A stretch of DNA of 64,000 bases from Rhodospirillales bacterium (GTDB lineage Bacteria > Pseudomonadota > Alphaproteobacteria > Rhodospirillales > Shumkoniaceae). The stretch is from contig JACZKS010000090.1 in the NCBI GenBank assembly GCA_014859895.1, positions 1 to 64,000 of the forward strand. Reading direction: 5' to 3'. Every line of letters begins with the position of its first letter. Position 1 is the stretch's first letter. The position numbers were made by a program, and so were the translations under genes. The notes under the pieces are model-generated. The model was not told the origin of the DNA, searched no databases, and saw nothing but the letters and a program-made list of their open reading frames with translations. Positions 45,703-62,060 of the stretch are shown here, in pieces.

Positions 45703-46635
45703 CTATGGGGCGGGAACGGTATGGGCAGGGACTTGTTTCAGGCTCTTCGCCTTTGAAAAATCCTTGAACTCGGACAGGAGTTCGAGAAAAACGCGGGCGG
45801 CAAGGCTCGGGATCGTGCCCCCATACAAATACAGGCTGTATTCCATGTCCGAGGTCAGGCCCCGTGCGGGCAACCGGACCAGCCGTCTCGACTGCGGGGC
45901 CACCTTGATCGTGCCCTCGGGTACGAACGTCAAGCAACCGTGCATGGCAAGCTGGATGGCGGCCTCGATCCGGCCGACCTCGATCAGGCTGTCCGGCAAA
46001 GGAACGCTTCCGAACCACTCGGCGACGCAGCGCCGCGTATAGGTTCCCTCTTCGCGGACCGCCAGAATGTGATCGTGCAGGTCCTCGGGCCGCACCTCGC
46101 CGCCGCCGGCCAACGGATGATCCGGGGGCGCGATGAGAGCCAGGCGTTCGACATGGATCGGCACCGCTCCGAGGCTGGCCGGCCGATTGGTTATCCCTCC
46201 CGCGAAGCCGAGATCGACGGCGCCGCTTTCGACCAGACCGAGGACTTCCGCGCTGTTGTGAAAGCATACGGTGATCTGCACCAGGGGATGGCGCCTCTTG
46301 AACTCCATGACCACCGGCGGCAGCAGATAGGCCATGTAAGTCGTGGCGCCGATCCTGAGTCGACCGCGCTTGAGCGCGCTCAACTCCTTCAGTGCGAACT
46401 CCGCCTCCTCCACCGTCTTCAGGATCGCCTTGGTGTGCCGCCACAGCTCCTCGCCCTCGGCTGTCAGGTGAATGCGCTGGCCGTGCCGGACGAACAGCTT
46501 GACGCCAAGTTTTTCCTCCAGCGCGCGGATGTGCTGGCTGACGGCGGGCTGGGTGACGAAGGTGTCGCGCGCCGCCTGGGTGAAGCTTCCGGTTTCGACG
46601 ACGGCCAGAAAGGTGGTGAGCAGCGTCATGTTCAC
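45703..46635 (-). CDS. LysR family transcriptional regulator
   Basis: A 310-residue protein. DNA-binding domain: LTTFLAVVETGSFTQAA and VTQPAVSQHIRALEEKLG. The effector domain follows. GTG at 46635 has GGAG nine bases upstream; ATG 46629 is an alternative. It lies upstream of the Gfo/Idh operon on the same strand and divergent from the CYTH gene, sharing a 180-bp region with a palindrome. Confidence 0.9.
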   Translation of the reverse strand: MNMTLLTTFLAVVETGSFTQAARDTFVTQPAVSQHIRALEEKLGVKLFVRHGQRIHLTAEGEELWRHTKAILKTVEEAEFALKELSALKRGRLRIGATTYMAYLLPPVVMEFKRRHPLVQITVCFHNSAEVLGLVESGAVDLGFAGGITNRPASLGAVPIHVERLALIAPPDHPLAGGGEVRPEDLHDHILAVREEGTYTRRCVAEWFGSVPLPDSLIEVGRIEAAIQLAMHGCLTFVPEGTIKVAPQSRRLVRLPARGLTSDMEYSLYLYGGTIPSLAARVFLELLSEFKDFSKAKSLKQVPAHTVPAP

Positions 46636-46660: not shown

Positions 46661-46678
46661 CATAAGTATTAGCTTATG
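46661..46678. promoter_or_regulatory. Palindrome in the LysR/CYTH divergent region
   Basis: CATAAG-TATTAG-CTTATG has perfect 6-bp arms. It is 25 bp from the LysR start and 138 bp from the CYTH start, a LysR-type autoregulatory position. Confidence 0.5.
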
Positions 46679-46815: not shown

Positions 46816-47283
46816 ATGGCCAAGGAAATCGAACGCAAGTTTCTGGTTGAGGGGGAGAGCTGGCGTGCGCTGGCCGAGGGAAAGCTCTATCGCCAGGGGT
46901 ACCTTAACAGCGTCAAGGAACGGACCGTGCGGGTGCGGACCGTGGGTCAGAAAGGTTATCTGACCATCAAGGGAATCACCGTCGGCGCCACTCGCGTCGA
47001 ATACGAATACGAAATCCCGGTCGGAGAGTGCAATGCGATGCTCGATGATCTGGCCGAGAAGCCGATCATCGAGAAGAAGCGCTATGCCGTCGCCTTCGGC
47101 GGCCTGACCTGGGAGATCGACGAGTTCTTCGGCGAGAACGCCGGCCTCATCGTGGCCGAGGTGGAACTGAGCAGCGAGGAGCAGGCTTTCGAGAAGCCGT
47201 CATGGACCGGCAAGGAGGTGACGGGCGATCCCCGTTACTTCAACTCGAACCTCATCGCCCATCCTTACTCCGCCTGGAAATGA
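46816..47283 (+). CDS. CYTH domain protein (triphosphate tunnel metalloenzyme)
   Basis: A 155-residue enzyme with the ExExK start signature EIERKFLV (Glu4, Glu6, Lys8), then RVRTVGQKGYLTIKG and WEIDEFFG. Bacterial CYTH/TTM proteins of this size hydrolyse inorganic tripolyphosphate or act on other triphosphates with Mg2+ or Mn2+. GGAAGGA precedes the ATG. It starts a plus-strand run of four genes ending with an anion transporter and a giant membrane protein. Confidence 0.93.
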   Translation: MAKEIERKFLVEGESWRALAEGKLYRQGYLNSVKERTVRVRTVGQKGYLTIKGITVGATRVEYEYEIPVGECNAMLDDLAEKPIIEKKRYAVAFGGLTWEIDEFFGENAGLIVAEVELSSEEQAFEKPSWTGKEVTGDPRYFNSNLIAHPYSAWK

Positions 47284-47304
47284 ACCGGGCCCGAGGAAAT
47301 CGTC

Positions 47305-47940
47305 ATGGTTGATACGCTTGCCAAGAACGTCCCGACGTCGGCGGCCGATGCCGCCAAGATCGCGCCACGCGCCGAATTCCGCGTATTCGGCCACGGGGTG
47401 ATCGACATCGTGCGCAAGACCATGTGGGACGCCTCGGCCGTCCTGTTCAAGGCGCGCAGGATGCCGGCCGAAACCTACTTCCTGTCGCGCCACACGGACG
47501 AAGCCAACGTCAAGGTCCGCGACGGGCTGCTGGATATCAAGACCAAGGTCGGAACCACCCCGCAAGGCTACGAGATCTTCCAGCCGCGCGGAAAGTTCCA
47601 GTTTCCCGTCAACGCGGAAGAACTTCGCGAGATCGTCCGTCACCTGAAGGTCACGATGGATCTCGACCGTGATTCCTACACGTTCGACCAGTTCCTCGGT
47701 CTGGCCAGGGCCCATCCTGACCTCGTTCCGGTGACGGTAGAGAAGATGCGTTACGGCTTCAGCGTCAACGGCATCATCTGCGAATACGCCGAAGTCTGGT
47801 TCAACGGCGCGCTCGTCGAATCGGCGTGCTGCGAAAGCGAAGACCACGAGGGCATGAGCAAAGCCATCGAGGTCCTCGGTATCGGGGGAATGCCCAATAC
47901 CAACTACCTGCGGGCGGCCAAGCGGGTCGTCGGCCTTTAG
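47305..47940 (+). CDS. Divergent CYTH-fold-like protein
   Basis: A 211-residue protein of uncertain family. The order of charged strands resembles CYTH: AEFRVFG, then NVKVRDGLLDIKTKV, YEIFQPRGKFQF, VTVEKMRYGF, ICEYAEVWFNGALVESA and NTNYLRAAK. The ExExK signature is not intact (E-F-R), so it may bind rather than hydrolyse a polyanion. It is 21 nt after the canonical CYTH gene; paired arrangement suggests they work together. Confidence 0.65.
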   Translation: MVDTLAKNVPTSAADAAKIAPRAEFRVFGHGVIDIVRKTMWDASAVLFKARRMPAETYFLSRHTDEANVKVRDGLLDIKTKVGTTPQGYEIFQPRGKFQFPVNAEELREIVRHLKVTMDLDRDSYTFDQFLGLARAHPDLVPVTVEKMRYGFSVNGIICEYAEVWFNGALVESACCESEDHEGMSKAIEVLGIGGMPNTNYLRAAKRVVGL

Positions 47941-47993
47941 GGGCCGGTTCCGTTCGTGCGACCAAGCCCGCGCTCAATGGGAGGAGTCCTGTA

Positions 47994-49577
47994 ATGTCAC
48001 CAAGCAAGATCGTTGCGAGCGCTGCAACGGAAGCCTTCGATCCGCTGGATCTCCGAAACTATTCGCTGGAGAGATTCAAGGAAATCAAGCCCGGCAGGAT
48101 CATGGAATCCCTCAAGCTCTACGGGGTTCCGATCGCAATCATCGCCTTCTTCTTCTTCCACCTCAAATGGTGCGGCGAAATCGACGTTTTCGAGGCGCAA
48201 AAGGTTCCGCAACTCTGCTACAGCGCGCTCGGCATCTTCATCGCCTCTCTCGTCCTGTGGCTGACCGAGACCATTCCGAACTTCCTGACCTCCCTGATCG
48301 TTATCGTCGTCGCCATCGTGACCGGCACGATGAAGATGCGGGAAGCCTTCGCCATGCTGGGCGAGCCGGTGATGATCCTGAACATCGCCAGCTTCATCCT
48401 GGCCAGCGCCTTGGTGGCGACGGGGCTGGCAAAGCGCGTTTCGCTTTATCTGGTCCTGAAGATGAACGGCAACGTGATGATGCTTTTTTGGAGCTTCATC
48501 CTGCTGAACCTGTTCTTCGGTGCTTTCATCAGCGCGACGTCCGCCAAGACCGCCCTACTGTTGCCGCTGTTCATGGTCATCTCGGCCATTTTCGGGGCGA
48601 CCGGGGGAAATCGGCGCAACAACGTCGGGCGCAACATGGTGTTGCAGAACCTCGTTGCCAACAACGTCTCGGCCAGCGCCTTCATGACCGGCTCGGCGGC
48701 CAACCTCGTCGCCGTGGCCCTGATGGAAAAGGCCGGGGCCGGTGTCACCTATAGCCAATGGCTGATGGCGCTGCTGCCGTTGGCGATCATTCAGTGCGCG
48801 ATTTCCTGGTGGACCGGCACGAAATACATCTTCCCAATCTCCAAGGAGGACGCCAAGCCGCAGTTCGAGGGTGGGTTCCACCTTCTCCAGGAGGAATACC
48901 GCAAGCTCGGGCGCATCTCGATCGATGAGATCAAGGCCTCGGTCGTCTTCGTCACGGTGCTTCTCCTCTGGGCGACCGGCAGTATTCACGGGATCAAGGC
49001 GGAAGTTATCGCGCTCGGCGGGGCGTGCTTCGTCTTCCTGCCGTCGATCATGAATTCGCCGCGCATCGGCGTCATCAAATGGAACGACGCCGACATTCCG
49101 TGGCACATGCTGATGTTCAGCTGGGGCGCGTACGTCCTGGGCGGCGTCGTCGAGAAATCCAAGATCGTCGACATGTGGATCCACGGCATGCTCGACTCCT
49201 GGCAGATCGACGGCAACGCGCCGGGCATGAAGCTCCTCGTCTTCGCTGTTCTCGCCGGGTTGTTCGGGATCACCACCCTGATCAGCGAAAGCAAGACGGC
49301 CCGGACCATCATCATGTTCCCGATCATGATTACGGTCGCCAAGAAATTCGGCTGGGACGTCGTCGGCTTCTGCCTGCCGATGGCCTTCATGATCAACCAG
49401 GTCTACGTGCTGTACTTCAACTCGAAGCCGGCCAACATCAGTTATCTGCTCGACCACTATTCGAGCGGGGAATCCTTCAAGTTCGGCATGATCCAGCTGG
49501 TCCTGATCTGGGTCGTACTGATCCTGTGGACGCAATACGCGATGCCCATCATGGGCTTCAACAGTCGGCTCTGGTAA
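47994..49577 (+). CDS. DASS/SLC13-type anion transporter
   Basis: A 527-residue permease with about 11-12 helices. It has ALGIFIASLVLWLTETIP and the two pseudo-symmetric hairpin regions before a Pro of the DASS family. The first reads ATSAKTALLLP and the second SESKTARTIIMFP, so the usual SNTAT motifs carry Lys or Arg in both halves. Known members couple Na+ to di- and tricarboxylates, sulfate or phosphate. The altered motifs suggest different coupling. GGGAGGAG precedes the start; a strong terminator follows. Confidence 0.85.
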   Translation: MSPSKIVASAATEAFDPLDLRNYSLERFKEIKPGRIMESLKLYGVPIAIIAFFFFHLKWCGEIDVFEAQKVPQLCYSALGIFIASLVLWLTETIPNFLTSLIVIVVAIVTGTMKMREAFAMLGEPVMILNIASFILASALVATGLAKRVSLYLVLKMNGNVMMLFWSFILLNLFFGAFISATSAKTALLLPLFMVISAIFGATGGNRRNNVGRNMVLQNLVANNVSASAFMTGSAANLVAVALMEKAGAGVTYSQWLMALLPLAIIQCAISWWTGTKYIFPISKEDAKPQFEGGFHLLQEEYRKLGRISIDEIKASVVFVTVLLLWATGSIHGIKAEVIALGGACFVFLPSIMNSPRIGVIKWNDADIPWHMLMFSWGAYVLGGVVEKSKIVDMWIHGMLDSWQIDGNAPGMKLLVFAVLAGLFGITTLISESKTARTIIMFPIMITVAKKFGWDVVGFCLPMAFMINQVYVLYFNSKPANISYLLDHYSSGESFKFGMIQLVLIWVVLILWTQYAMPIMGFNSRLW

Positions 49578-49615
49578 AGCCGGGTACGATCACGTTTCCT
49601 CCAAACTGGTAGATG

Positions 49616-49653
49616 CGGACCGGCCCCAAAAACGGGCCGGTCCGTTTCTTTTT
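49616..49653 (+). terminator. Strong rho-independent terminator in the leader of the 1012-aa gene
   Basis: An 11-bp stem, CGGACCGGCCC with GGGCCGGTCCG, and a 7-nt A-rich loop are followed by TTTCTTTTT. It ends 11 nt before the ATG of the next gene, leaving only its ribosome site between. Confidence 0.88.
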
Positions 49654-49664
49654 CGAGGGGTGCA

Positions 49665-52600
49665 ATGAACGGCGTCTTGTTCGATCAGCGTGATTTCGAT
49701 CTGGTCCAGATGGTCAATGCCTATGCCGACCGCGACCCGGCGGGCGAGCAGCGGGACCGGCGCGTGCGGATCCTCAACTTCCACCCGAACGGCCTGCGCG
49801 AACTGACGTCGCGCAAGGCGTTCCGGGTGGCGCTGGCCGTCATGGGCCTTCTCGACACGCGACCTACTTCGACCCCGGAGGAAAGGCTCGAAGCCTTACG
49901 GATTCTCCGAGCCGAAGCGTGCAGTTCGGCCAGATCGCCCCTGCGGCTCAACACCGCACGCGTCCTCATCCAGCTCATGAAGGAACTGCTGCGGGCACGC
50001 GGCCACCTATCCTCCCAGCTTTGCCTCGCCCACGACTTTCACAAGGCGGCCAGCGGACGGCCGCGGATCGTGCGATCCCTCCTCCGGCGGCTCAATCTTC
50101 TGGAGATGCCCGAGGCGTGGAACCAGCGTGCCTTCGACTATCATGTTCGGGATTCCCACAGTTCGGGCCGCAAGTCGCCGACCCATCTGATCATGGATGC
50201 CTGGCTGAAGGGCATCCGGACGCTCAAGGTCATTTACGAGAATTACGCGCCGCCAGCGGCGGCCCAGGAGCTGATGGACGCCGCCGACATCATGGAGGTG
50301 ACGGTTCGCATCGGCATCCGCTTCCACCGTCCTTTCCGGGGGCAGCGGGTGACGCTGGTCTGGACGCCACGGGGATTTTCCGGCCCCAAAGGGTTCCGGG
50401 AGTTTCTGGAAAAGCCGGCGATGCAGGCCCTGATTTCCGCCGGAAAGACGGTGGAGGCCTGTGAGAGGGCACGCTTCGCCCGGTTGATCGATCTCTACAA
50501 CCATGACTACCGGCCCGTGGTGGACAGCCGTTTCGGCCTGGACGTTGCCGAACTGGACTCCTCGGAGTTCGAGGCCCTCGTCGGTGATGCGCAACCGTCC
50601 TGGGCGCATCTTGCCGATTGCATCCATCGCCGGACCGTCGCCGCGATGCGCGCGCGCCTGGAAAATGCCGAGGTCCCCGTAGCGGCTGGACGCGCGCACC
50701 TGGAGGAGTGTTACGAGGCGATGGAGCGCTTCTCGCCGGCAACCGTTCTGGAAGAATGGCTGAACGAGGCTCTTGCCGCGACCGCATTGGGAAAAGCCGA
50801 AGCGGCCGCCACTTTCGTCGACGAGGATCCCCCGGCCCTGCTGAAAAGGCTGGCCGGCATCGCCACCGACTACCGGGCTTCGCTCGACACCCGAGATATC
50901 GTGCCGTCGCGGGTGCTGCAGCTGCTTCATCTTTGCGAAGGCCGTCTCACCCATCTGGAACTGTTCAGTCTTCAAACCTACCGCCCCGAGCACCTGCCGC
51001 AGCTTTCGGCGATGAACGATCTGCGCGAAGTGGTCAACTCCGGCAGTCCGTCGCGGCTCAAGCGTCTTGTTTCAGGTCTCCTCGAAGTCCTGCCGCCCGA
51101 AGCGGAAGAAGATGTCGGCTGCCTGCGCGACGTGGTGCGTTCGATGCCGGCCTTCCTCTCTCACTACCGCAAGCGGCCGCTCAGCACCTTCATCAGCAGC
51201 AATTCGTCGGGCCGTTCCGACTGGGGCGGTCAGCATGGCATGGGATTCGCGATCATCGAGACGCTGCCGGTCCGCGAACAGCGGGCGTGCTTCCGGGGCG
51301 GACAGCGAAGACTGCTGCCGCTTCGCTACGGCTTGATCGAAAGGGTGAGACGGGAGGCCGGCCATGCCGTGGAGCGCAGCGCGCACCTCGCGCGGGTGGC
51401 GCCGCTGGCATGGATCGCCTATTGGTGGCTCCGGCTGACGGACGTTTTCCGTCCGGCCAAGCGGGGATGGGTGGCGCCGCTGGAAAGCCTGGCCGTGACT
51501 TCCCGGGGAAACGTCGTCCCGCTGGGCGGGTTTGGCGTGTTCGCCGGCAACAACCTCGGCCTTAATGGCGCCACGCCCGGCCGCCGCATCGAGTCACGGT
51601 GGCGCTATGTCAACACCGTCCTGGTGAACGGCGTCCTCATCCTGGCGGGGTTCGTTTCCGCCTTCCTGGCCTTCCAGTACACGCAGGAGGGATTTCTCGC
51701 CTACTGGGGGGCGCCGCTGTGGTTCGCGGTGACCGGCAGCCGGAACATTCTCCAGGCGGTCATCGCCGGCGGCGGATTGCGCCGCTATTCGGCCCTGACC
51801 TGGAAGGACTATGTCAGCTGGAGCCGGTTGTCGGAATCGCTATTCTACACGGGGTTTTCGGTGCCACTGCTGGAAATCGGCGTCCGCTACCTCTTCCTTC
51901 AGAAGGGCCTCGGCCTGACGGCGGCGGACAGTCCGCTTGCCGTCTTCCTGACCCTGGCCGCGGTCAACGGCGCCTACCTGATGAGCCACAACCTCTTTCG
52001 TGGCCTGCCGTCGGCGGCCGCCTATGCGAACCTGGGGCGGAGCATCGCCGCCGTGCCGGTCGCCATGGCCTACAACTATGGCCTGTTTCTCCTGCTGCAC
52101 TTCCTGGAGGTCGGCGACGTGGCTGCGGTCCTGGCGGCGACGACCAGCCTGGTCGCCAAGACCGCCTCGGACACGGTTGCCGCCGTGCTCGAGGGCTATT
52201 TCGACCGCCGGGCGACACGGCGCCTGCGGGCGCGCGACGTTCGGAACGTCCTGTCGCGGCTGGCGGCCTGCCACGCCTCCCTGGAGTATTTGTTCCCGCG
52301 CGAGGACGGCCCCGAGGTCCTCGGCCATCCCGACCGGCTGATCGGGTCCGACGATCCGCAAGTCAGGCAACTGGCCGAGGAGATCACCATTCATTGCCTC
52401 GACCTGATGTATTTTCACTTCTATCAGCCGCTGTCGGCCCAGACGTTCATGCGGCTGTCAAAGCATATGAGCCGCGACGAGAGGGAGTTCATCCTTCTCG
52501 CCCAGAAGCTTGTCGGCCAGGAAGAGTATGTGACGCGGCTTTTCGTCGACGGCATTTTCGGGGCGAACTTCGGGCCGGCGCTGGCCTTCTATCTCGGCCA

Positions 52601-52703
52601 GTTCCGCACATACGCCGACTTCATCCGCAAAACGGCCGGCGGCGGCGGCCATCCCGCTCGCGAGGAGCGGACAAGCCGCCAGAGGTTGGCAGACGCGGAG
52701 TGA
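49665..52703 (+). CDS. Large membrane protein with degenerate PHP-like domain, unknown function
   Basis: A 1012-residue protein. Residues ~155-235 read like a PHP phosphoesterase (FDYHVRDSHSSGRKSPTHLI; then KGIRTLKV, IYENY and RIGIRFH), but the metal-binding His/Asp of DxHxH and TDHD are mostly replaced. A long helical region follows (~320-520). Residues ~646-848 hold five to six membrane helices (NTVLVNGVLILAGFVSAFLA; VFLTLAAVNGAYLM), and ~160 cytosolic residues close it. GAGGGGTG precedes the ATG. It is the last gene of the CYTH/DASS run. No named family is recognised. Confidence 0.8.
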   Translation: MNGVLFDQRDFDLVQMVNAYADRDPAGEQRDRRVRILNFHPNGLRELTSRKAFRVALAVMGLLDTRPTSTPEERLEALRILRAEACSSARSPLRLNTARVLIQLMKELLRARGHLSSQLCLAHDFHKAASGRPRIVRSLLRRLNLLEMPEAWNQRAFDYHVRDSHSSGRKSPTHLIMDAWLKGIRTLKVIYENYAPPAAAQELMDAADIMEVTVRIGIRFHRPFRGQRVTLVWTPRGFSGPKGFREFLEKPAMQALISAGKTVEACERARFARLIDLYNHDYRPVVDSRFGLDVAELDSSEFEALVGDAQPSWAHLADCIHRRTVAAMRARLENAEVPVAAGRAHLEECYEAMERFSPATVLEEWLNEALAATALGKAEAAATFVDEDPPALLKRLAGIATDYRASLDTRDIVPSRVLQLLHLCEGRLTHLELFSLQTYRPEHLPQLSAMNDLREVVNSGSPSRLKRLVSGLLEVLPPEAEEDVGCLRDVVRSMPAFLSHYRKRPLSTFISSNSSGRSDWGGQHGMGFAIIETLPVREQRACFRGGQRRLLPLRYGLIERVRREAGHAVERSAHLARVAPLAWIAYWWLRLTDVFRPAKRGWVAPLESLAVTSRGNVVPLGGFGVFAGNNLGLNGATPGRRIESRWRYVNTVLVNGVLILAGFVSAFLAFQYTQEGFLAYWGAPLWFAVTGSRNILQAVIAGGGLRRYSALTWKDYVSWSRLSESLFYTGFSVPLLEIGVRYLFLQKGLGLTAADSPLAVFLTLAAVNGAYLMSHNLFRGLPSAAAYANLGRSIAAVPVAMAYNYGLFLLLHFLEVGDVAAVLAATTSLVAKTASDTVAAVLEGYFDRRATRRLRARDVRNVLSRLAACHASLEYLFPREDGPEVLGHPDRLIGSDDPQVRQLAEEITIHCLDLMYFHFYQPLSAQTFMRLSKHMSRDEREFILLAQKLVGQEEYVTRLFVDGIFGANFGPALAFYLGQFRTYADFIRKTAGGGGHPAREERTSRQRLADAE

Positions 52704-53778: not shown

Positions 53779-54507
53779 ATGACGAAACGCGTTCTCCTTG
53801 GCATGCTCACCCCCTCCTCCAATACGGTCCTGGAGCCGGTGACCAGTGCCATCCTGGCGGGCGTCCCCGACGTGACGGCCCATTTCGGCCGTTTCCGCGT
53901 GACCGAGATATCGATGAACTCGTGCGCGCTTGGGCAGTTCGAGAACGAGCCCATCCTGGCCGCCGCCAATTTGCTGGCCGACGCCAAGGTGAACGTCATT
54001 TCCTGGAACGGCACCTCGTCGGGGTGGCTGGGCTTCGATTCCGACGTCAAGCTGTGCGAGGAGATCAAGGCCCACACTGGTGTTCCCGCCAACACGTCGG
54101 TGCTGGCCCTGAACGAGATCTTCGAGATTACGGGCGTCAAGCGCTTCGGCCTGGTGACGCCCTACCTCGACGAGATCCAGGAAAAGATCATCGCCAATTA
54201 TGCCAGGTCCGGATTCGAGTGCGTCGGCGAACAGCATCTCAAGGATCGCGGCAACTTCTCGTTCTCGGAGTACACCGAAGAGCGCATCGCCGAGCTCATT
54301 CGGACGGTGGCGAAGTCGAAGCCGCAGGCGATTTCCGTCTTTTGCACCAACATGCGTGGCGCCCTGGTCGCCGAGCGGATGGAAAGGGAACTCGGTATCC
54401 CGATCTATGACACGGTGGCCACGTCGGTGTGGAAATCGATGAAGATGGCCGGCGCCGATCCCAAGCGCATCAAAGGATGGGGACGCCTGTTCACCGAGGT
54501 CGGCTGA
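53779..54507 (+). CDS. Arylmalonate decarboxylase/maleate isomerase-family enzyme
   Basis: A 242-residue Asp/Glu racemase-fold protein. Where two-Cys isomerases have a first Cys, this has Gly78 in WNGTSSG; the second Cys is kept as Cys189 in FCTNMRG. That Gly/Cys pair and the ending GWGRLF are as in arylmalonate decarboxylase rather than maleate isomerase or racemases. Thr79-Ser80 would form an oxyanion hole. Translationally it precedes a dihydropyrimidinase-type gene by 32 nt. It likely decarboxylates or otherwise acts on a malonate-like product. Confidence 0.8.
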   Translation: MTKRVLLGMLTPSSNTVLEPVTSAILAGVPDVTAHFGRFRVTEISMNSCALGQFENEPILAAANLLADAKVNVISWNGTSSGWLGFDSDVKLCEEIKAHTGVPANTSVLALNEIFEITGVKRFGLVTPYLDEIQEKIIANYARSGFECVGEQHLKDRGNFSFSEYTEERIAELIRTVAKSKPQAISVFCTNMRGALVAERMERELGIPIYDTVATSVWKSMKMAGADPKRIKGWGRLFTEVG

Positions 54508-54539
54508 CCGCAGCATCGCGCTCGAAAGGAGGTCGATAC

Positions 54540-55973
54540 ATGTCCGATTTTGATCTGGTGATCCGCAACGGAAAGGTGGCGACCGCCGCCGACGTGTTTT
54601 CCTGCGACCTGGGCATCGTCGACGGCCGTATCGTGGCGATGGCCGAGGGGATCGCGCTCGGCGCCAGCCGCCACGAGATCGATGCTGCCGGCAAGCTGGT
54701 GCTGCCGGGTGGCGTCGACGCCCACTGCCACTTCGACCAACCGACCGGCGATGGCTCGCAGATGGCCGACGATTTCCGCAGCGGCACGGTTTCGGCGGCC
54801 TGCGGCGGCACCACGACGGTCATTCCCTTCGCCTGCCAGGTCAAGGGTGCGTCACTGCGCGCGGCGGTTGAAGATTATCACCGCCGGGCCGAAGGCAAGG
54901 CGGTCATCGACTACGCCTTCCACCTGATTGTCAGCGACCCCAGCGACCAGGTGCTGGGCCAGGAACTGCCGGCCCTGATCCGGGACGGCTATACGTCGTT
55001 CAAGATCTACATGACCTACGACGACCTGAAGCTGGACGACCGCCAGATTCTCGATGTCCTGGCGCTGGCCCGGCGGGACGGCGCCATGGCGATGATCCAC
55101 GCCGAGAATTCGGACTGCATCGCCTGGTTGACCGAGAAGCTGGAACTGGCCGGCCAGACCGCCCCCCACTTCCACGCCCTGTCGCGCCCACAAATCGCCG
55201 AGCGCGAGGCGACCCACCGGGTCATCTCGCTGGCCGAGTTGGTCGACGTGCCGATCCTGATCGTCCACGTGTCCGGCCGCGAGGCGATCGAGCAGATCCG
55301 CTGGGCCCAGGGGCGCGGCCTCCGGGTCTATGCCGAGACCTGCCCGCAGTACCTGTTCCTCACCGCCGAGGACCTGCACCTCGACGGTTTCGAAGGCGCC
55401 AAATGCATCTGCAGCCCGCCTCCGCGCGACGCCGCCAACCAGGAAGCGGTGTGGGATGGGCTCGAGAATGGCGTCTTCCAGGTCTTCTCGTCGGACCACG
55501 CGCCGTTCCGCTTCAAGGATCCGAAGGGCAAGATGCTGCGCGGCGCCGAGGCTCCGTTCCGCCATGTGCCGAACGGCATTCCGGGGGTCGAGACGCGGCT
55601 TGCCCTGCTGTTTTCCGAGGGCGTCGGCAAGGGGCGCATCACGCTCACCCGTTTCGTCGAGCTGACGTCGGCCAATCCCGCCCGCATCTATGGCCTCTAT
55701 CCGCGCAAGGGGACGATCGCCATCGGCGCCGACGCCGACTTGGCGATCTGGGACCCCGAGCGCGAGGTCACCATCACCAACGGCATGCTGCACCACAACG
55801 TCGACTACACCCCCTACGAAGGCAGGAAGGTCAAGGGTTGGCCGGAAACGGTCATCTCGCGCGGCGAGATCATCGTTGAGGGCGGCGGATTTGCCGGCGG
55901 TGCGGGACGCGGACGATTCTTGAAATGCGACTCGCCGGTGCCGGCACGCCCGAAGGGGCGATCGGAAGAGTAG
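54540..55973 (+). CDS. Dihydropyrimidinase/hydantoinase-type cyclic amidohydrolase
   Basis: About 477 residues with AAAGGAGGTC before the ATG. The binuclear metal site is visible: DAHCHFDQP, the carboxylated Lys in SFKIYMTY, His in MIHAENSD and VHVSG, and Asp in SSDHAPF. These enzymes open cyclic ureides or imides such as dihydropyrimidines or hydantoins. With the decarboxylase-like neighbour and TRAP genes it suggests use of a cyclic ureide or imide. Confidence 0.92.
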   Translation: MSDFDLVIRNGKVATAADVFSCDLGIVDGRIVAMAEGIALGASRHEIDAAGKLVLPGGVDAHCHFDQPTGDGSQMADDFRSGTVSAACGGTTTVIPFACQVKGASLRAAVEDYHRRAEGKAVIDYAFHLIVSDPSDQVLGQELPALIRDGYTSFKIYMTYDDLKLDDRQILDVLALARRDGAMAMIHAENSDCIAWLTEKLELAGQTAPHFHALSRPQIAEREATHRVISLAELVDVPILIVHVSGREAIEQIRWAQGRGLRVYAETCPQYLFLTAEDLHLDGFEGAKCICSPPPRDAANQEAVWDGLENGVFQVFSSDHAPFRFKDPKGKMLRGAEAPFRHVPNGIPGVETRLALLFSEGVGKGRITLTRFVELTSANPARIYGLYPRKGTIAIGADADLAIWDPEREVTITNGMLHHNVDYTPYEGRKVKGWPETVISRGEIIVEGGGFAGGAGRGRFLKCDSPVPARPKGRSEE

Positions 55974-55979
55974 GAAACC

Positions 55980-56993
55980 ATGAAAAAGGGAGTCACGAAG
56001 ATGCGGAAGTACCTCTACGGATTGGGAGCGACGGTTGCCGCGGTTGCCATGCTGGGCATGGTCACGGCGGCCCACGCCGAAAAGGTCCGGATCGCCGGCA
56101 ACTTCCCGGGCGATCACTCCAGCAGCCAGGCCATGAAGATCTTCAAGGAAGAAGTGGAGAAGGCCACCAAGGGCGAGCTGACGGTCGACCTCTTCCCCGA
56201 CATGCAGCTCGGCGGCGCCCAGGAGAACATCGATCAGGTGCGTTCGGGCACGGTGTTCGCCACCTGGATCAGCATCGCCTTCCTGTCTCGCACGGTCCCC
56301 GAACTGGAAGCCGTCAGCCTGCCCTTCGTCTTTGCCAATCGCGACCAGGCCTTCCGGGTGATGGACGGCAAGGTCGGCGAACTCTTGGACAAGAAGCTGG
56401 CCGACAAGGGCTACACCTCGCTGGGCTATATGGAATTGGGCTCGCGCAACGTGACCAACAGCGTCCGCCCGCTCAAGACGCTCGAAGACTTCAAGAACCT
56501 GAAAGTCCGCTTGCAGCCCAACGAAACCCACATCGCGACGTTCCGGGCCATCGGCGCCAACCCGGTCTCCATGGACATCAAGGAAGTTTATTCGGCCCTT
56601 CAGCAGGGCGTCCTCGACGGGCAGGAAAACCCCTACAGCATCATCGAAACGCGGCGCTTCGACGAAGTCCAGAAGTACCTCTCGGATTCCGGGCACTTCT
56701 TCGATTTCATCATTATCGCCGCCAATAAGCGGAAGTTCGAAGGCTTCAAGCCCGAGGTCAAGGATGCCGTCCGTGCCGCCATGGCGAAGGCCATCAGTTG
56801 GCAGCGCAAGAAGGCGGCCGACGAGGACATCGCGGCGCGTGACACCCTGATTAAGCGGGGCATGCAGTTCGACGCCATTTCCCCCGAGGTCCGCGCCCAA
56901 CTGACCAAGGCGACATCGGACGTGGTCGGCGGCCTGCGCAAGAAGATCGGCTCGGACATGATCGACGCCGTCATGGCCGAGGCGCAGAAATGA
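55980..56993 (+). CDS. TRAP transporter substrate-binding protein (DctP family)
   Basis: About 337 residues with a signal peptide ending at AAHA. DctP features include FPDMQLGGAQENIDQVRSG, LPFVFANRDQAF and EVYSALQQGVLDGQENP. Starts at 55980 (AGGAAACC upstream) and 56001 (GGGAG upstream) are both reasonable. It lies 6 nt after the amidohydrolase gene and overlaps the DctQ gene by 4 nt, so its ligand is presumably the cyclic substrate or its acid. Confidence 0.93.
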   Translation: MKKGVTKMRKYLYGLGATVAAVAMLGMVTAAHAEKVRIAGNFPGDHSSSQAMKIFKEEVEKATKGELTVDLFPDMQLGGAQENIDQVRSGTVFATWISIAFLSRTVPELEAVSLPFVFANRDQAFRVMDGKVGELLDKKLADKGYTSLGYMELGSRNVTNSVRPLKTLEDFKNLKVRLQPNETHIATFRAIGANPVSMDIKEVYSALQQGVLDGQENPYSIIETRRFDEVQKYLSDSGHFFDFIIIAANKRKFEGFKPEVKDAVRAAMAKAISWQRKKAADEDIAARDTLIKRGMQFDAISPEVRAQLTKATSDVVGGLRKKIGSDMIDAVMAEAQK

Positions 56994-57520
56994 CCTTCAC
57001 TTACCAGGGGCCGGCTTCGGCAGGCCCCTTCTTTCTTCTCAAGCGGGGGCTCGAGGGCATCGACCGCGTCGTCTACGGCATCATCATTGCCGCGATGACG
57101 GGCATGACCGGGCTGGTCGCCGTCCAGGTATTCGTCCGCTACGTGATGTCGTCTTCGATCGATTCGGCCGACGAGCTGTCGCGCCTGTTTTTCATCTGGG
57201 CCATGTTCATGGCCATCCCGCACGGCATCAAGCTGGGCATTCACGTCAGCATCGACGTGCTGATCCGAAAGCTCAACCCGGCCGTTCAGGAAACGCTGTT
57301 CCGCCTGATGTGCGTGGCCAGCGCCGCCCTGATGATCCTGGTCTTCTACGTGACGATCTATGTCACCGCCGACAAGTGGCAGGATATGATGCCAACCCTC
57401 GATGTGACGGCGGCCGTCTATTACATCCCGGTATTGCTGTCGGCCGGCCATTCCTTCCTGCATCTCGTCGTATTCGCCTGGGGCGGATCGAAAATTTGGG
57501 GGGAGGCCGTTGCGCGATGA
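56990..57520 (+). CDS. TRAP transporter small permease (DctQ family)
   Basis: A 176-residue four-helix membrane protein with SSSIDSADELSRLFFIWAMF, the usual DctQ signature region. ATGA overlaps join it to both the binding protein and the large permease, indicating translational coupling. It is the small subunit of the importer in the amidohydrolase cluster. Confidence 0.92.
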   Translation: MTFTYQGPASAGPFFLLKRGLEGIDRVVYGIIIAAMTGMTGLVAVQVFVRYVMSSSIDSADELSRLFFIWAMFMAIPHGIKLGIHVSIDVLIRKLNPAVQETLFRLMCVASAALMILVFYVTIYVTADKWQDMMPTLDVTAAVYYIPVLLSAGHSFLHLVVFAWGGSKIWGEAVAR

Positions 57521-58797
57521 CCCTCATCGTCGTCGCCACCTTCGTGGTATTCGCCCTGCTCGGCATGCCGCTGGCGTTCACCCTCGGTTTCGCGTCGCTG
57601 GGTGCCCTTTACGCCGCCGACATCGAGTTTCTCGTCCTGCCGCAGCGCATGATGCACGCTGTCGACAATTTCCCGCTGATGGCCATCCCGCTGTTCATGC
57701 TGGCCGGGGAGTTGATGGTCAAGGCCGGCATCATGCAGCGCCTGATCGACTTCGCCAACAGCATCGTCGGCCGCGTTCACGGCGGGCTTGCACACGTCAC
57801 CATCGTTTCGGGCATGATCCTCGCCGCCGTCAGCGGCGCCGCGGTGGCCAGCGCCAGCGCATTGGGCGCCACGTTGGTGCCGGCGTTGCGCAAGAACTAC
57901 GAGGACGGCTATTCCAGCGCCGTGATCTGCTCGGCATCCAACCTGGGGCCGATCATCCCGCCCAGCAACGCCATGATCGTCTACGCGCTGATGGCGGGCT
58001 CCAGCGTTTCGGTGGGCGGCCTGTTCATGGCCGGCATCGTGCCGGGGCTGATCCTGACGGTCGGCTTCATGGCGCTGGCGAGCTTCATCTCCATCAAACG
58101 GGGCTACCCCCTGACCGGCGAGAAGTTCGATATCCGCAACGTTCTGCGCCAGTCGCGCAAGGCCATCGTCATCTTCCTGATGCCGGTGATCGTGGTCGGC
58201 GGCATCGTCGGCGGCGTGTTCACGGCCACCGAAGGCGCCGCCATCGCGGTGGTCTATGCGTTGGTCGTCGGCTTCTTCGTCACCCGCGTGCTGAAACTCT
58301 CCGACCTGCCGGGCGCCCTCTTCCGGGCCGCCGTCACGGCGGCGATGGTCGGCGCCCTGATCGCCTTTGCAGCGACCGTCACCTTCGTCTTCACCATCGA
58401 CATGGTGCCGCTCAAGCTTTCGGAGATGATCCAGGCCTTCACCAGCAACCCGACGGTGTTCATCCTGCTGGTCATGGTGATGCTGATCGTGGTCGGCATG
58501 TTCATCGAATCGAACGCAGCCTACATCATGCTGGTTCCCCTCTTCGCGCCGATCGCGCTGGCCTACAACATCGACCCGTTGTTCTTCGGGTTCCTGTTCG
58601 TGCTCAACCTGGTGGCCGGCATGATGACGCCGCCCGTCGGCGTGCTGCTGTTCGTCATGTGCGGCATCACGCGCATTTCGATGAGCGATCTTATCCGCAG
58701 CGCCTGGCCGTTTATCGTCTTGCAGTACGTCGTGCTCGGGCTGTGCATGGTCTTTCCCGAATTGGTGACGTGGCTGCCCCGCTACCTCGGGTTCTAA
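57517..58797 (+). CDS. TRAP transporter large permease (DctM family)
   Basis: A 426-residue protein with about 12 helices. Typical DctM segments: PLMAIPLFMLAGELM, ILAAVSGAAVASASALGATL, NLGPIIPPSNAMIVYAL and MTPPVGVLLFVMCGI. It starts by ATGA overlap with the small permease. The 104-bp gap after it holds no gene or obvious terminator before the next TRAP system. Confidence 0.95.
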   Translation: MTLIVVATFVVFALLGMPLAFTLGFASLGALYAADIEFLVLPQRMMHAVDNFPLMAIPLFMLAGELMVKAGIMQRLIDFANSIVGRVHGGLAHVTIVSGMILAAVSGAAVASASALGATLVPALRKNYEDGYSSAVICSASNLGPIIPPSNAMIVYALMAGSSVSVGGLFMAGIVPGLILTVGFMALASFISIKRGYPLTGEKFDIRNVLRQSRKAIVIFLMPVIVVGGIVGGVFTATEGAAIAVVYALVVGFFVTRVLKLSDLPGALFRAAVTAAMVGALIAFAATVTFVFTIDMVPLKLSEMIQAFTSNPTVFILLVMVMLIVVGMFIESNAAYIMLVPLFAPIALAYNIDPLFFGFLFVLNLVAGMMTPPVGVLLFVMCGITRISMSDLIRSAWPFIVLQYVVLGLCMVFPELVTWLPRYLGF

Positions 58798-58901
58798 GCG
58801 TTCCTCCCCCGGCGGTCTTGAGGGGCCGGCGGGCGGAGGCGCCCTTCCGTCGTGGAGGGATAACGAAAGTTCTTTCGGTGAGGCTCTAAGGAGAAATCAA
58901 A

Positions 58902-59963
58902 ATGACATCACGGACGATGACTATTCGGTTGGGTGTGGGTGCGGTCGCCGCCGTTCTGGTGGCCGGCTTGGCAAGTGCGGCCCTGGCGGCCGAACTGCGG
59001 GTGGCCGGCAACTTTTCTGGAAACAAGAAGCACGTCGACGGCGTCGAGCGGCCGTTCTTCGATGGTTTGGCGAAGGAGACGGGGCTGGATCTCAAGGTCA
59101 ACTACAACCCGATGGACATGCTCGGCATCAAGGCGCCGGACGCCTTGCGCCTGCTCAAGGCGGGGGCATTCGACGTGATGTCGGTGCAGACCGGCATGGC
59201 GTCGCGCGACGATCCCTTCTTCGAGGGCCTGGATATCGCCGGCGTTGCGCCGGACATGGCCGCCCTGCGCAAGGTCGTCGACGCCTACCGCGACGAGTTC
59301 GACCAGCGTCTCCAAAAGAAGTTCAACGCCAAGGTGCTGACTCTGTGGCCGTTCGGCCCCCAGGTTCTCTACTGCAACGCCTCGGTCAAATCGCTGGACG
59401 ACCTGAAGGGCAAGAAGGTCCGCACCTTCACCTCTTCGATGGCGCAGGTGATCGAATCCCTGGGCGGCACATCGATCACGCTGCAGTTCCCCGAGGTTTA
59501 TCCGTCTCTCCAGAAAGGCGTCGCCGACTGCGCCGTGACCGCGCCGACGGCGGGCAACAGCGCCAACTGGCCGGAGGTCAGCGCCAATCTCCTTACGCTT
59601 GCCCTCTCCGGGTCGGTCCAGGGCCATTTCATGAACCTCGATACCTGGAAGAAGCTGGGCCCGGATGGCCAGAAGAAGATGATGGCCGCGTTCAAGGCCA
59701 TGGAAGAGCAGATGTGGAACCTCGCCGTCAGCGTCAACGATGACGCCGTTGCCTGCAATACCGGCGCGGCATCGTGCAAGGAGCACACGAAGTTCAATAT
59801 GACCCTGGTCGAGACTTCGCCCGCGATGCTGGCGCGCGTCAAGGAAACCGCGGTCAACGTCACCGTCCCGCAGTGGGCGGCGCTCTGCAACAAGGTCGAT
59901 CCGGCCTGCTCGGCGACCTGGAACAAGACTGCCGGTTCCGCCGTCGGCATCCAGGTTAAGTAG
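58902..59963 (+). CDS. TRAP transporter substrate-binding protein (DctP family)
   Basis: A 353-residue protein with a signal peptide ending at ALAA. It has LRVAGNFSGNKKHVDGV, LWPFGPQVLYCNASVKSLDD, and LQFPEVYPSLQKGVADCAVT as the ligand-site helix. Four Cys near the C-terminus (VACNTGAASCKEH, LCNKVDPACSATW) may form disulfides, uncommon in the family. AAGGAG precedes the start. A 10-bp hairpin separates it from the small permease gene. Confidence 0.9.
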   Translation: MTSRTMTIRLGVGAVAAVLVAGLASAALAAELRVAGNFSGNKKHVDGVERPFFDGLAKETGLDLKVNYNPMDMLGIKAPDALRLLKAGAFDVMSVQTGMASRDDPFFEGLDIAGVAPDMAALRKVVDAYRDEFDQRLQKKFNAKVLTLWPFGPQVLYCNASVKSLDDLKGKKVRTFTSSMAQVIESLGGTSITLQFPEVYPSLQKGVADCAVTAPTAGNSANWPEVSANLLTLALSGSVQGHFMNLDTWKKLGPDGQKKMMAAFKAMEEQMWNLAVSVNDDAVACNTGAASCKEHTKFNMTLVETSPAMLARVKETAVNVTVPQWAALCNKVDPACSATWNKTAGSAVGIQVK

Positions 59964-59975
59964 AACTCGAACCGA

Positions 59976-60008
59976 GGGCGCCGGCTGCCGTTTCCGTCGC
60001 CGGCGCCC
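59976..60008 (+). other. Intercistronic hairpin between TRAP binding protein and DctQ genes
   Basis: GGGCGCCGGC pairs with GCCGGCGCCC (10 bp) around a 13-nt loop, with no T-tract. It lies between the binding-protein stop and the next gene, a position shared with two other transport operons here. Confidence 0.65.
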
Positions 60009-60036
60009 ACCACTTTCCAGGACAAGGCACCACAAA

Positions 60037-60639
60037 ATGTCGTCGCAGAGTGTGTCCGAAACGGGCATGAGGGCGGTCAGGCTTCTGGCCATCACGGGCG
60101 GGTACGGCTTTCTTGGGTTGTCCGTGCTTGTCGCCTTCGAAGTCGTCGCCCGGAAGTTTTTTGCCTTCTCGTTGCAGGGCATCGACGAGATCGGCGGCTA
60201 TGTGATGGCCGGAGCGGTGGCGCTGGGGATTTCCTACACGCTGGTCCACCGTTCCCACACCCGCATCGACATCTTTATCGACCGGCTTCCGGCGCGGATG
60301 CGGCCCGGTTTCCACGCCTTCGCCATGGTCTCCCTCGCCGCTTTCGGCGTGTTCATGGCTTGGCGGGCCACGACCACGCTGATCGACAGCATTCAATACG
60401 GAAGCGTCGCCAGCACGCCTTTGCAGACGCCGCTGTGGATTCCGCAGCTTATCTGGGATATCGGGCTGATTTTCTTCGCGATTCTGGCCACGGTTCTGGC
60501 AGTGCACGCCGTCATCCTGGCGGTCCGTGATCCCGATGGGGTCATGGCCCTCTACGGTCCCCGGACCGTGCGCGAGGAAGTGAATGATGAAGTCGCGGTC
60601 CTCGAGGCGTCGCGCGGCCAAACGGGAGACCCGCGATGA
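60037..60639 (+). CDS. TRAP transporter small permease (DctQ family)
   Basis: A 200-residue protein with four helices; FSLQGIDEIGGYVMAGAVAL is the conserved second-helix area and LVHRSHTRIDIFIDRLP follows. It ends in an ATGA overlap with the large permease. AAGGC is upstream of the start. It belongs to the second plus-strand TRAP system of this region, without adjacent catabolic genes on its strand. Confidence 0.9.
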   Translation: MSSQSVSETGMRAVRLLAITGGYGFLGLSVLVAFEVVARKFFAFSLQGIDEIGGYVMAGAVALGISYTLVHRSHTRIDIFIDRLPARMRPGFHAFAMVSLAAFGVFMAWRATTTLIDSIQYGSVASTPLQTPLWIPQLIWDIGLIFFAILATVLAVHAVILAVRDPDGVMALYGPRTVREEVNDEVAVLEASRGQTGDPR

Positions 60640-61940
60640 TCGACGTAACCGGGGCTAGCCTTGGCTTTCTTTTGATGCTCGGCCTGATGTTCATCGGGCT
60701 GCACGTGGCGACAGCGCTGTTCATCGTCAGTGCGGTGGGGTGCGTCGTCTATCTCGGCGTGCCGACTCTGCTGAGTTTCGGCGAAAACACCTGGGGTGTC
60801 CTCAACGACTTCATTATGACGGCGATTCCGCTGTTCATCCTGTTGGGCGAGATCCTGCTGCGCGCCGGCATCACCGAACGCATGTACAATTCGTTGTCCG
60901 ACTGGCTGAGCCGCTTCCCGGGCGGGTTGCTGCACACGAATATCGGCGCCTCGGCGCTGTTTGCGGCGGTTTCGGGATCGTCGGTCGCCACCGCGGCGAC
61001 CATCGGTACCGTCGCCCTGCCCGCCTTCCGGGCGCGACGCTACAACGAGCGTCTGGTGCTTGGCTCCATTGCCTCGGGCGCCACTCTGGGAATCCTGATT
61101 CCGCCGAGCATCAACCTCATCATTTACGGCGCCATCACCAATACCTCAATCGGACGTCTATTCGCCGCCGGCATTCTGCCTGGGTTCGGCTTGGCCGCGC
61201 TGTTCATGGTGACCATCGCCGCGTTGTGCATATGGCGGCCGGAATGGGCGGGACTAAAAGAGGAACGGGCGCCGTTGGCCGACCGCCTGCGCCGCCTTGT
61301 CGCCCTGATGCCGCCCTTTTTCATTTTCGTCGTCGTTATGGGCAGCATCTACTTGGGCTGGGCGACGCCGACCGAGGCGGCGGCCCTGGGCGTGGTGGCG
61401 GCACTGGTGCTGGCAGCCGGCAACGGCAAGCTTACCTTCACCATGCTGCACAGCGCCTTCGAGGCGACGATCCGCACCACGGCGATGATTCTGCTGATCA
61501 TCCTCGCCGCCTTCTTCCTCAACTTCGTCATCAGCATTCTCGGCATTCCGCAGACCATGGCCAACTTCGTCGCCGAGACGGGAGCGACGCCCGTCATGAC
61601 TATGGTCTTGCTGACCATCTTCTATCTGATCCTGGGCTGTTTCCTGGAAACCCTCTCCATGATGATCGCAACAGTTCCGGTCGTCGTGCCGATCGTCGTC
61701 GCCCTCGGCCTCGATCCGGTGTGGTTCGGAATCTACTTGGTCATCATGATGGAAATGGCGCTGGTCACCCCCCCGCTGGGCATGAACCTGTATGTCGTGC
61801 AGGGCGTGCGCGGTGGCGGGCCGATCCGCGACGTGGTCATCGGCACGCTGCCGTTCCTGGCCGTGCGGGTCGTCTTCGTAGCGGCGATCATCTTGTGGCC
61901 GCAAATCATCCTGTGGTTTCCGAACCTGATGTTCGGCTAG
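60636..61940 (+). CDS. TRAP transporter large permease (DctM family)
   Basis: A 434-residue protein with DctM segments: TAIPLFILLGEILLRAG, AAVSGSSVATAATIGTV, TLGILIPPSINLIIYGAI and MALVTPPLGMNLYVVQG. It forms the channel subunit with the DctQ protein encoded by the overlapping gene. A strong bidirectional terminator follows. Confidence 0.95.
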   Translation: MIDVTGASLGFLLMLGLMFIGLHVATALFIVSAVGCVVYLGVPTLLSFGENTWGVLNDFIMTAIPLFILLGEILLRAGITERMYNSLSDWLSRFPGGLLHTNIGASALFAAVSGSSVATAATIGTVALPAFRARRYNERLVLGSIASGATLGILIPPSINLIIYGAITNTSIGRLFAAGILPGFGLAALFMVTIAALCIWRPEWAGLKEERAPLADRLRRLVALMPPFFIFVVVMGSIYLGWATPTEAAALGVVAALVLAAGNGKLTFTMLHSAFEATIRTTAMILLIILAAFFLNFVISILGIPQTMANFVAETGATPVMTMVLLTIFYLILGCFLETLSMMIATVPVVVPIVVALGLDPVWFGIYLVIMMEMALVTPPLGMNLYVVQGVRGGGPIRDVVIGTLPFLAVRVVFVAAIILWPQIILWFPNLMFG

Positions 61941-62012
61941 GGCGACCTGACCCATCCGGAAGCCGTTAATCTTCCGGTCAAAGTTATGTGTTCAATAGAC
62001 TGATAATAATAG

Positions 62013-62051
62013 AAAAGCCCCGGCGGACATCACGTTCGCCGGGGCTTTTCC
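62013..62051. terminator. Bidirectional rho-independent terminator
   Basis: A perfect 14-bp stem, GAAAAGCCCCGGCG with CGCCGGGGCTTTTC, has an 11-nt loop. The A-run on one arm and T-run on the other serve both directions, ending the TRAP operon and the convergent dehydratase gene. Confidence 0.92.
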
Positions 62052-62060
62052 TATGATGAT

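Follow-up and report, generated by a model that had tools for sequence, protein, structure and literature searches.

A 64,000-nucleotide (nt) stretch of a Rhodospirillales genome (contig JACZKS010000090.1), referred to here as the window, carries four genes at 46816-52703 on the plus strand. They encode a CYTH protein, a 211-residue protein of an unnamed family (designated P2), a DASS-family anion transporter and a 1012-residue protein. We hold with high confidence that the first three, CYTH-P2-DASS, are a real and conserved three-gene module. Structural modelling indicates that P2 is a second CYTH/TTM barrel, with a kinship that is visible in structure only, and P2 is the representative of a new TTM subfamily with hundreds of members across phyla. 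That the module handles triphosphate or short phosphate chains beside anion transport is a reading to which we give roughly an even chance. Its proposed phosphoanhydride substrate is deduced mainly from the repeated joining of P2 to polyphosphatases of three folds and to phosphate-related genes.

The CYTH, P2 and DASS genes form an operon

The CYTH and P2 genes are separated by 21 nt, the P2 and DASS genes by 53 nt, and the DASS gene and the gene for the 1012-residue protein by 87 nt. An original prediction, made from the letters of the window, had described four plus-strand genes with these short gaps, and its coordinates and spacings were borne out. It had also treated all four genes as one module. 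The grouping of CYTH, the 211-residue protein and DASS held, while the 1012-residue protein did not belong to it. We take the operon to comprise CYTH, P2 and DASS because a strong intrinsic terminator stands between the DASS gene and the fourth gene. Within the 87-nt gap a GC-rich 12-bp stem (10 GC pairs) is followed by TTTCTTTTT, and the 71 nt from 49600 to 49670 fold with an energy of -32.4 kcal/mol (z-score -3.3). A sister genus (G003) carries LysR, CYTH, P2 and DASS genes with a matching terminator and lacks the gene for the 1012-residue protein. The DASS gene of this sister genus (L010, reverse strand) contains a single in-frame TGA at codon 394, either an assembly error or a point mutation.

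A LysR-family regulator gene is divergent from the operon, and a palindrome, CATAAGTATTAGCTTATG, lies between the regulator and CYTH genes. This palindrome is likely to be a LysR-binding site, because the same letters are found in a congener of the window genome (G001) and because they are exchanged at the equivalent position of locus L066 for another perfect palindrome, CATAAGTAAATACTTATG. Binding is thus put forward from conservation of the letters. The functional unit is LysR, CYTH, P2 and DASS, with the 1012-residue protein outside it.

P2 is modelled as a divergent TTM barrel

Searches of P2 against Pfam and NCBIfam gave zero matches, and a search of its sequence against the PDB returned nothing relevant. 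An AlphaFold model built with 56 sequences reached a predicted local distance difference test (pLDDT) score of 94.4 and formed an eight-stranded tunnel barrel. Foldseek placed TTM/CYTH proteins at the top of the matches to this model (thiamine triphosphatase (ThTPase), Sulfolobus TTM and AtTTM3); next came Mediator Med18 and RNA triphosphatases, whose folds are similar. In VIA-align the model matched 1yem with Z 12.5 and a root-mean-square deviation of 3.6 over 150 residues, and mouse ThTPase with Z 12.1. The original prediction had called the 211-residue protein CYTH-like; structure prediction, with its high pLDDT and leading TTM/CYTH matches in the PDB, agrees.

Residues R22, E24, R26, E56, K70, R72, K79, K97, K147, R149, E160 and E177 are invariant in the 49 main sequences, and E90 and E172 are nearly so. 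When strands were matched by eye, R22-x-E24-x-R26 stood in 49 of 49 sequences where TTM proteins have ExExK, and R95 and K97 apparently stood in place of the acidic pair of CYTH beta5. Given these invariant residues and the RxExR motif, the modelled P2 tunnel is conserved yet non-canonical, and it is strongly basic. P2 therefore shares the barrel of the TTM/CYTH superfamily (ThTPase, YgiF, AtTTM3 and SaTTM; Z 10-12.5) but differs from it in having RxExR rather than ExExK, about 10% identity and no Pfam match.

P2 is found beside interchangeable enzymes and transporters

Among 84,980 species genomes that were scanned, 409 relatives of P2 were confirmed, of which the 80 closest were taken for locus analysis. 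The loci come from Proteobacteria, Spirochaetes, Holophagaceae, Gemmatimonadetes, Desulfobacterota and other taxa. The commonest arrangement was CYTH-P2-DASS, in that order and with short gaps, and because it recurs in many phyla the gene order is not due to chance. Neighbours of modelled families within 5 kb were counted in the 58 loci that had 2.5 kb or more of sequence on either side, with open reading frames (ORFs) antisense to P2 excluded (neighbour family f16 is antisense CYTH). An anion transporter was present near P2 in 54 of the 58 loci. DASS and CYTH genes were each found in 40 loci and LysR genes in 32, followed by DHH and Porin_O_P-like genes (13 each), TctA and DUF47 (11 each), PiT (10) and SulP (4).

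CYTH and DHH genes were never found in the same locus (0 loci versus about 9 expected; hypergeometric p 3e-9), nor were DASS and TctA (p 1e-7), both p-values being calculated without regard to phylogeny. CYTH and DHH therefore look like alternatives. The DHH neighbour is closest to the yeast PPX1 exopolyphosphatase, with manganese pyrophosphatases ranking behind, so that at some P2 loci a PPX1-like DHH exopolyphosphatase appears to take the place of CYTH. DASS is itself replaced at other P2 loci by TctABC, PiT, SulP or ChrA.

Fusions and dense clusters tie P2 to the same group of functions. CYTH and P2 are a single ORF in L086. P2 is fused to a Ppx/GppA exopolyphosphatase domain in L163:5816-7354(-), where a CYTH gene follows directly. 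DASS, P2, CYTH, Porin_O_P, DUF47 and PiT genes all lie in one locus in L159, and L161:5711-8420(-) has a run of four genes for P2, CYTH, a symmetrical diadenosine tetraphosphate (Ap4A) hydrolase and again CYTH. A distant P2-like domain is fused behind GPP34 (GOLPH3-like) in L018:2405-3730, L020:2620-3885(-), L021 and L019:5896-7131(-), the GPP34 domain being confirmed by Pfam in L018 and L020; these fusions adjoin genes for the chromate transporter ChrA (L018, L020 and L021) or PiT (L019). Across these loci P2 is thus linked again and again with phosphate-related genes and with inorganic polyphosphatases, the latter representing three unrelated folds. The original prediction had proposed a polyanion or phosphate link for the module, and the PPX1-like and Ppx/GppA polyphosphatases, PiT, DUF47 and Porin_O_P among the neighbours favour it.

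Further arrangements were seen at P2 loci. L162 contains P2, a guanylate-kinase-like gene, CYTH and a metallophosphatase gene. Immediately 5' of CYTH and beside a Porin_O_P-like gene, Holophagaceae and relatives (L035, L042, L046, L049, L053, L058 and L061) have an additional P2 paralogue that is divergent (24-27% identity). An unnamed membrane family without a Pfam match (f14) directly follows DASS or CYTH at several loci (L075:10265-11722; L159:9169-10470). In Desulfovibrio, Rhodocyclaceae and Holophagaceae the module has tandem copies of an unnamed, secreted-looking family of about 280 residues (F5) in its vicinity (L058:67-909; L128:17451-19998). Directly 3' of P2, L037:8636-10870 encodes a SulP permease with STAS and C-terminal cyclic-nucleotide-binding domains.

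The CYTH protein resembles a specific inorganic triphosphatase

The CYTH protein matched the Pfam CYTH domain PF01928 with 68.3 bits (cut-off 23.2). Its closest solved structures by sequence are 3typ and 2fbl, the latter being NE1496 of Nitrosomonas, and not CyaB. NE1496 has been reported as a specific inorganic triphosphatase (PPPase) (PMC3440374). The window protein aligns with NE1496 (NeuTTM) over nearly its full length and keeps the ExExK motif together with every basic and acidic residue of the TTM tunnel. Across 21 module homologues E3, E5, K7, R38, R40, K51, E61, E63, K86, R88, D101, E114 and E116 are invariant. NeuTTM has been described as a stand-alone protein, whereas the module CYTH has a second TTM-fold protein as its partner, is in one case fused to it, and is linked to transporters. 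A second CYTH gene of the window genome (L138:4616-8948) adjoins two PiT phosphate permease genes and a DUF47 gene.

The DASS protein has exchanger-like cation sites

The DASS protein matched Pfam Na_sulph_symp (PF00939) with 166 bits (cut-off 27), while its score against NCBIfam TIGR00785 (180.7) fell under that model's cut-off of 198.6. SAT-SAKT and SESKTART are found where the SNT motifs of DASS-C proteins are expected, with basic residues at the Na+ positions, and positive residues occupy the Na1 and Na2 positions as expected of DASS-E proteins. By sequence alignment only, K185 and R437 correspond to LaINDY R159 and H392, the residues that Sauer et al. proposed as the Na+ surrogates of exchangers (PMC7553777). 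Because basic residues occupy the SNT/Na+ sites of sodium-coupled relatives, the DASS protein is probably an exchanger that works without Na+ and whose site is very basic. It shares the proposed surrogate positions with DASS exchangers such as LaINDY and plant DiT1 but differs from them in extra conserved lysines at 433 and 478. Among module DASS proteins, every one of the commonest motif variants has basic residues at both sites together with lysines 433 and 478.

These features bear on a different account of the locus, namely a di- or tricarboxylate uptake module in which CYTH would be a CyaB-type adenylyl cyclase that makes a cyclic AMP (cAMP) signal for carbon-source control. In its favour, carboxylates are the typical substrates of DASS and TctABC transporters, genes of carbon catabolism are typically under LysR control, and one SulP neighbour has a cyclic-nucleotide-binding domain. 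We nevertheless consider this account improbable, since CYTH is closest to a specific triphosphatase (PMC3440374), since the PPX1-like proteins that replace it are not known as cAMP makers, and since DASS has other residues in place of the SNT motifs and conserves basic residues at four positions.

Proposed role in phosphate-chain handling

From the observed gene linkage, fold, residue conservation and partner replacement, we propose the following scheme for a phosphate-chain module. CYTH would hydrolyse inorganic triphosphate (PPPi) or short polyphosphate at its ends. P2 would bind the same type of polyanion, either as a partner subunit, in which case the two might form a complex, or as a sensor or an enzyme of altered specificity. 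The CYTH-P2 pair would serve an anion transporter, which in the window is a DASS protein whose cation sites resemble those of exchangers. The LysR protein would control the CYTH-P2-DASS set.

Several observations weigh against phosphate-chain handling. HHalign of the P2 profile with the module CYTH gave a probability of 0.3%, that is, no similarity, and P2 lacks the strand-1 ExExK signature in that its first glutamate is lost. Some of the transporters found with P2 are members of families for carboxylate, sulfate or chromate, and these give no indication of phosphate. The locus analysis is confined to the closest 80 of 409 relatives, and phylogeny is left out of both co-occurrence tests.

A canonical TTM barrel paired with a divergent one close to anion transport recalls the VTC complex of yeast (with Vtc4 as the catalytic TTM protein and Vtc2/3 as its TTM partner), and Vtc2 and Vtc complex chains appeared in the VIA list for P2 with Z 7.5-7.8. 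Unlike VTC and the SPX-controlled phosphate transporters of yeast, the module has no SPX or VTC domain (none was found in the four window proteins with Pfam and NCBIfam) and no evidence of a polymerase. The resemblance to VTC/SPX systems is one of functional analogy only. A relative of the yeast PPX1-type DHH-DHHA2 exopolyphosphatase stands in for CYTH beside P2 in 13 loci, but it is absent from the window operon. We offer tentatively, as possible though doubtful, that P2 is a new TTM family of polyphosphate-reading subunits, a bacterial counterpart of SPX/VTC, which attaches interchangeably to at least four unrelated transporter families and to polyphosphatases of three folds.

A rival reading would make P2-CYTH a sensor, with P2 reading the triphosphate or polyphosphate level and gating the adjoining transporter while CYTH or a PPX1-like enzyme clears the signal; its function would be analogous to that of SPX domains on yeast phosphate transporters. 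The presence of several unrelated transporter families beside P2 is easier to reconcile with a regulator than with a single-pathway enzyme, and the fusion of the distant P2 domain to GPP34, with ChrA or PiT genes adjoining, like the apparent replacement of the CYTH beta5 acidic pair by R95 and K97 (judged by eye), is in keeping with this. No P2-transporter fusion was seen, however, and near-invariant E24, E56, E90, E160, E172 and E177 leave room for catalysis. The P2-CYTH pair of L161 moreover adjoins the Ap4A hydrolase without a nearby transporter of the modelled families. A sensor is, in our judgement, rather unlikely.

No description of P2 or of the module was found in the family libraries and the literature searched, which was largely without subscription papers. 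The unnamed P2 family gains a fold, a constant class of enzymatic partner and a transporter context, and attention is drawn to a subgroup of DASS proteins whose basic sites are unusual. The phosphate-chain reading raises the question of whether bacteria couple the turnover of short-chain polyphosphate or triphosphate to anion transport. It also raises that of the purpose of inorganic triphosphatases, a role left open by their discoverers (PMC3440374).

The 1012-residue protein is a loose associate

The 1012-residue protein had zero matches in Pfam, including PHP, or in NCBIfam. Its relatives carry the PHP-like motifs DxHVHD...GRKxPT and GSDSTG, and the family profile weakly matches proteins of about 280 residues with PHP-like motifs. 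The window copy appears degenerate, because the HVHD of most relatives is HVRD in it and because SSNSS, without a final H, stands at the GSDS motif. Hydrophobic segments lie at about 648-826, and an AlphaFold model built with three sequences reached a pLDDT of 39. The description of a pseudo-PHP membrane protein in the original prediction is therefore plausible from motifs and hydrophobic segments, while a Pfam PHP match and an HxH motif are both lacking.

That all four genes are one functional system draws on the position of the fourth gene, which adjoins the module in the window and in G001, L066, L051 and G846 (3' of DASS in the first three, 3' of DHH in the other two), and on its enrichment in P2 genomes (12/50 versus 1/398 in a phylum sample, two weak PHP matches being disregarded). 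In one spirochaete order of 149 genomes, 28 carry this gene, 6 carry P2 and 4 carry both (one-sided p 0.012). The same survey shows that 24 of the 28 spirochaete carriers have no P2, and constant neighbours, looked for elsewhere, were not found. With the terminator between the DASS and 1012-residue genes and the absence of the latter from G003, a single four-gene system is very improbable, and the unit including the 1012-residue protein was rejected on terminator and distribution. For the same reasons the role of terminal sensor or permease, which had been assigned to this protein, is not supported; for this gene the result is one that the original prediction had itself named as counting against it. 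The gene is most readily understood as a separate passenger with loose ties to the module, and a weak association with P2 loci remains.

Features of the window

Coordinates of the module, its putative control elements and the adjacent gene
Feature	Position	Strand	Evidence and remarks
LysR-family regulator	45703..46635	-	Divergent from the operon; divergent also in G001, G003 and L066
Palindrome CATAAGTATTAGCTTATG, candidate LysR-binding site	46661..46678		Same letters in G001
CYTH protein, NeuTTM-type, predicted inorganic triphosphatase	46816..47283	+	PF01928, E=1e-18
P2, 211-residue second TTM-fold protein, unnamed family	47305..47940	+	AlphaFold model, PDB structure matches
DASS-family anion transporter, exchanger-like cation sites	47994..49577	+	PF00939, E=2e-48
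Intrinsic terminator ending the CYTH-P2-DASS operon	49615..49653	+	Hairpin and fold energy; kept in G001 and G003
1012-residue degenerate-PHP membrane protein, loose associate outside the operon	49665..52703	+	Motifs, hydrophobic segments, terminator, distribution

Downstream, window positions 53779-63998 encode an Asp/Glu racemase-like protein, a dihydropyrimidinase-like protein and two TRAP-transporter-like sets, which were judged by eye to be a separate unit.

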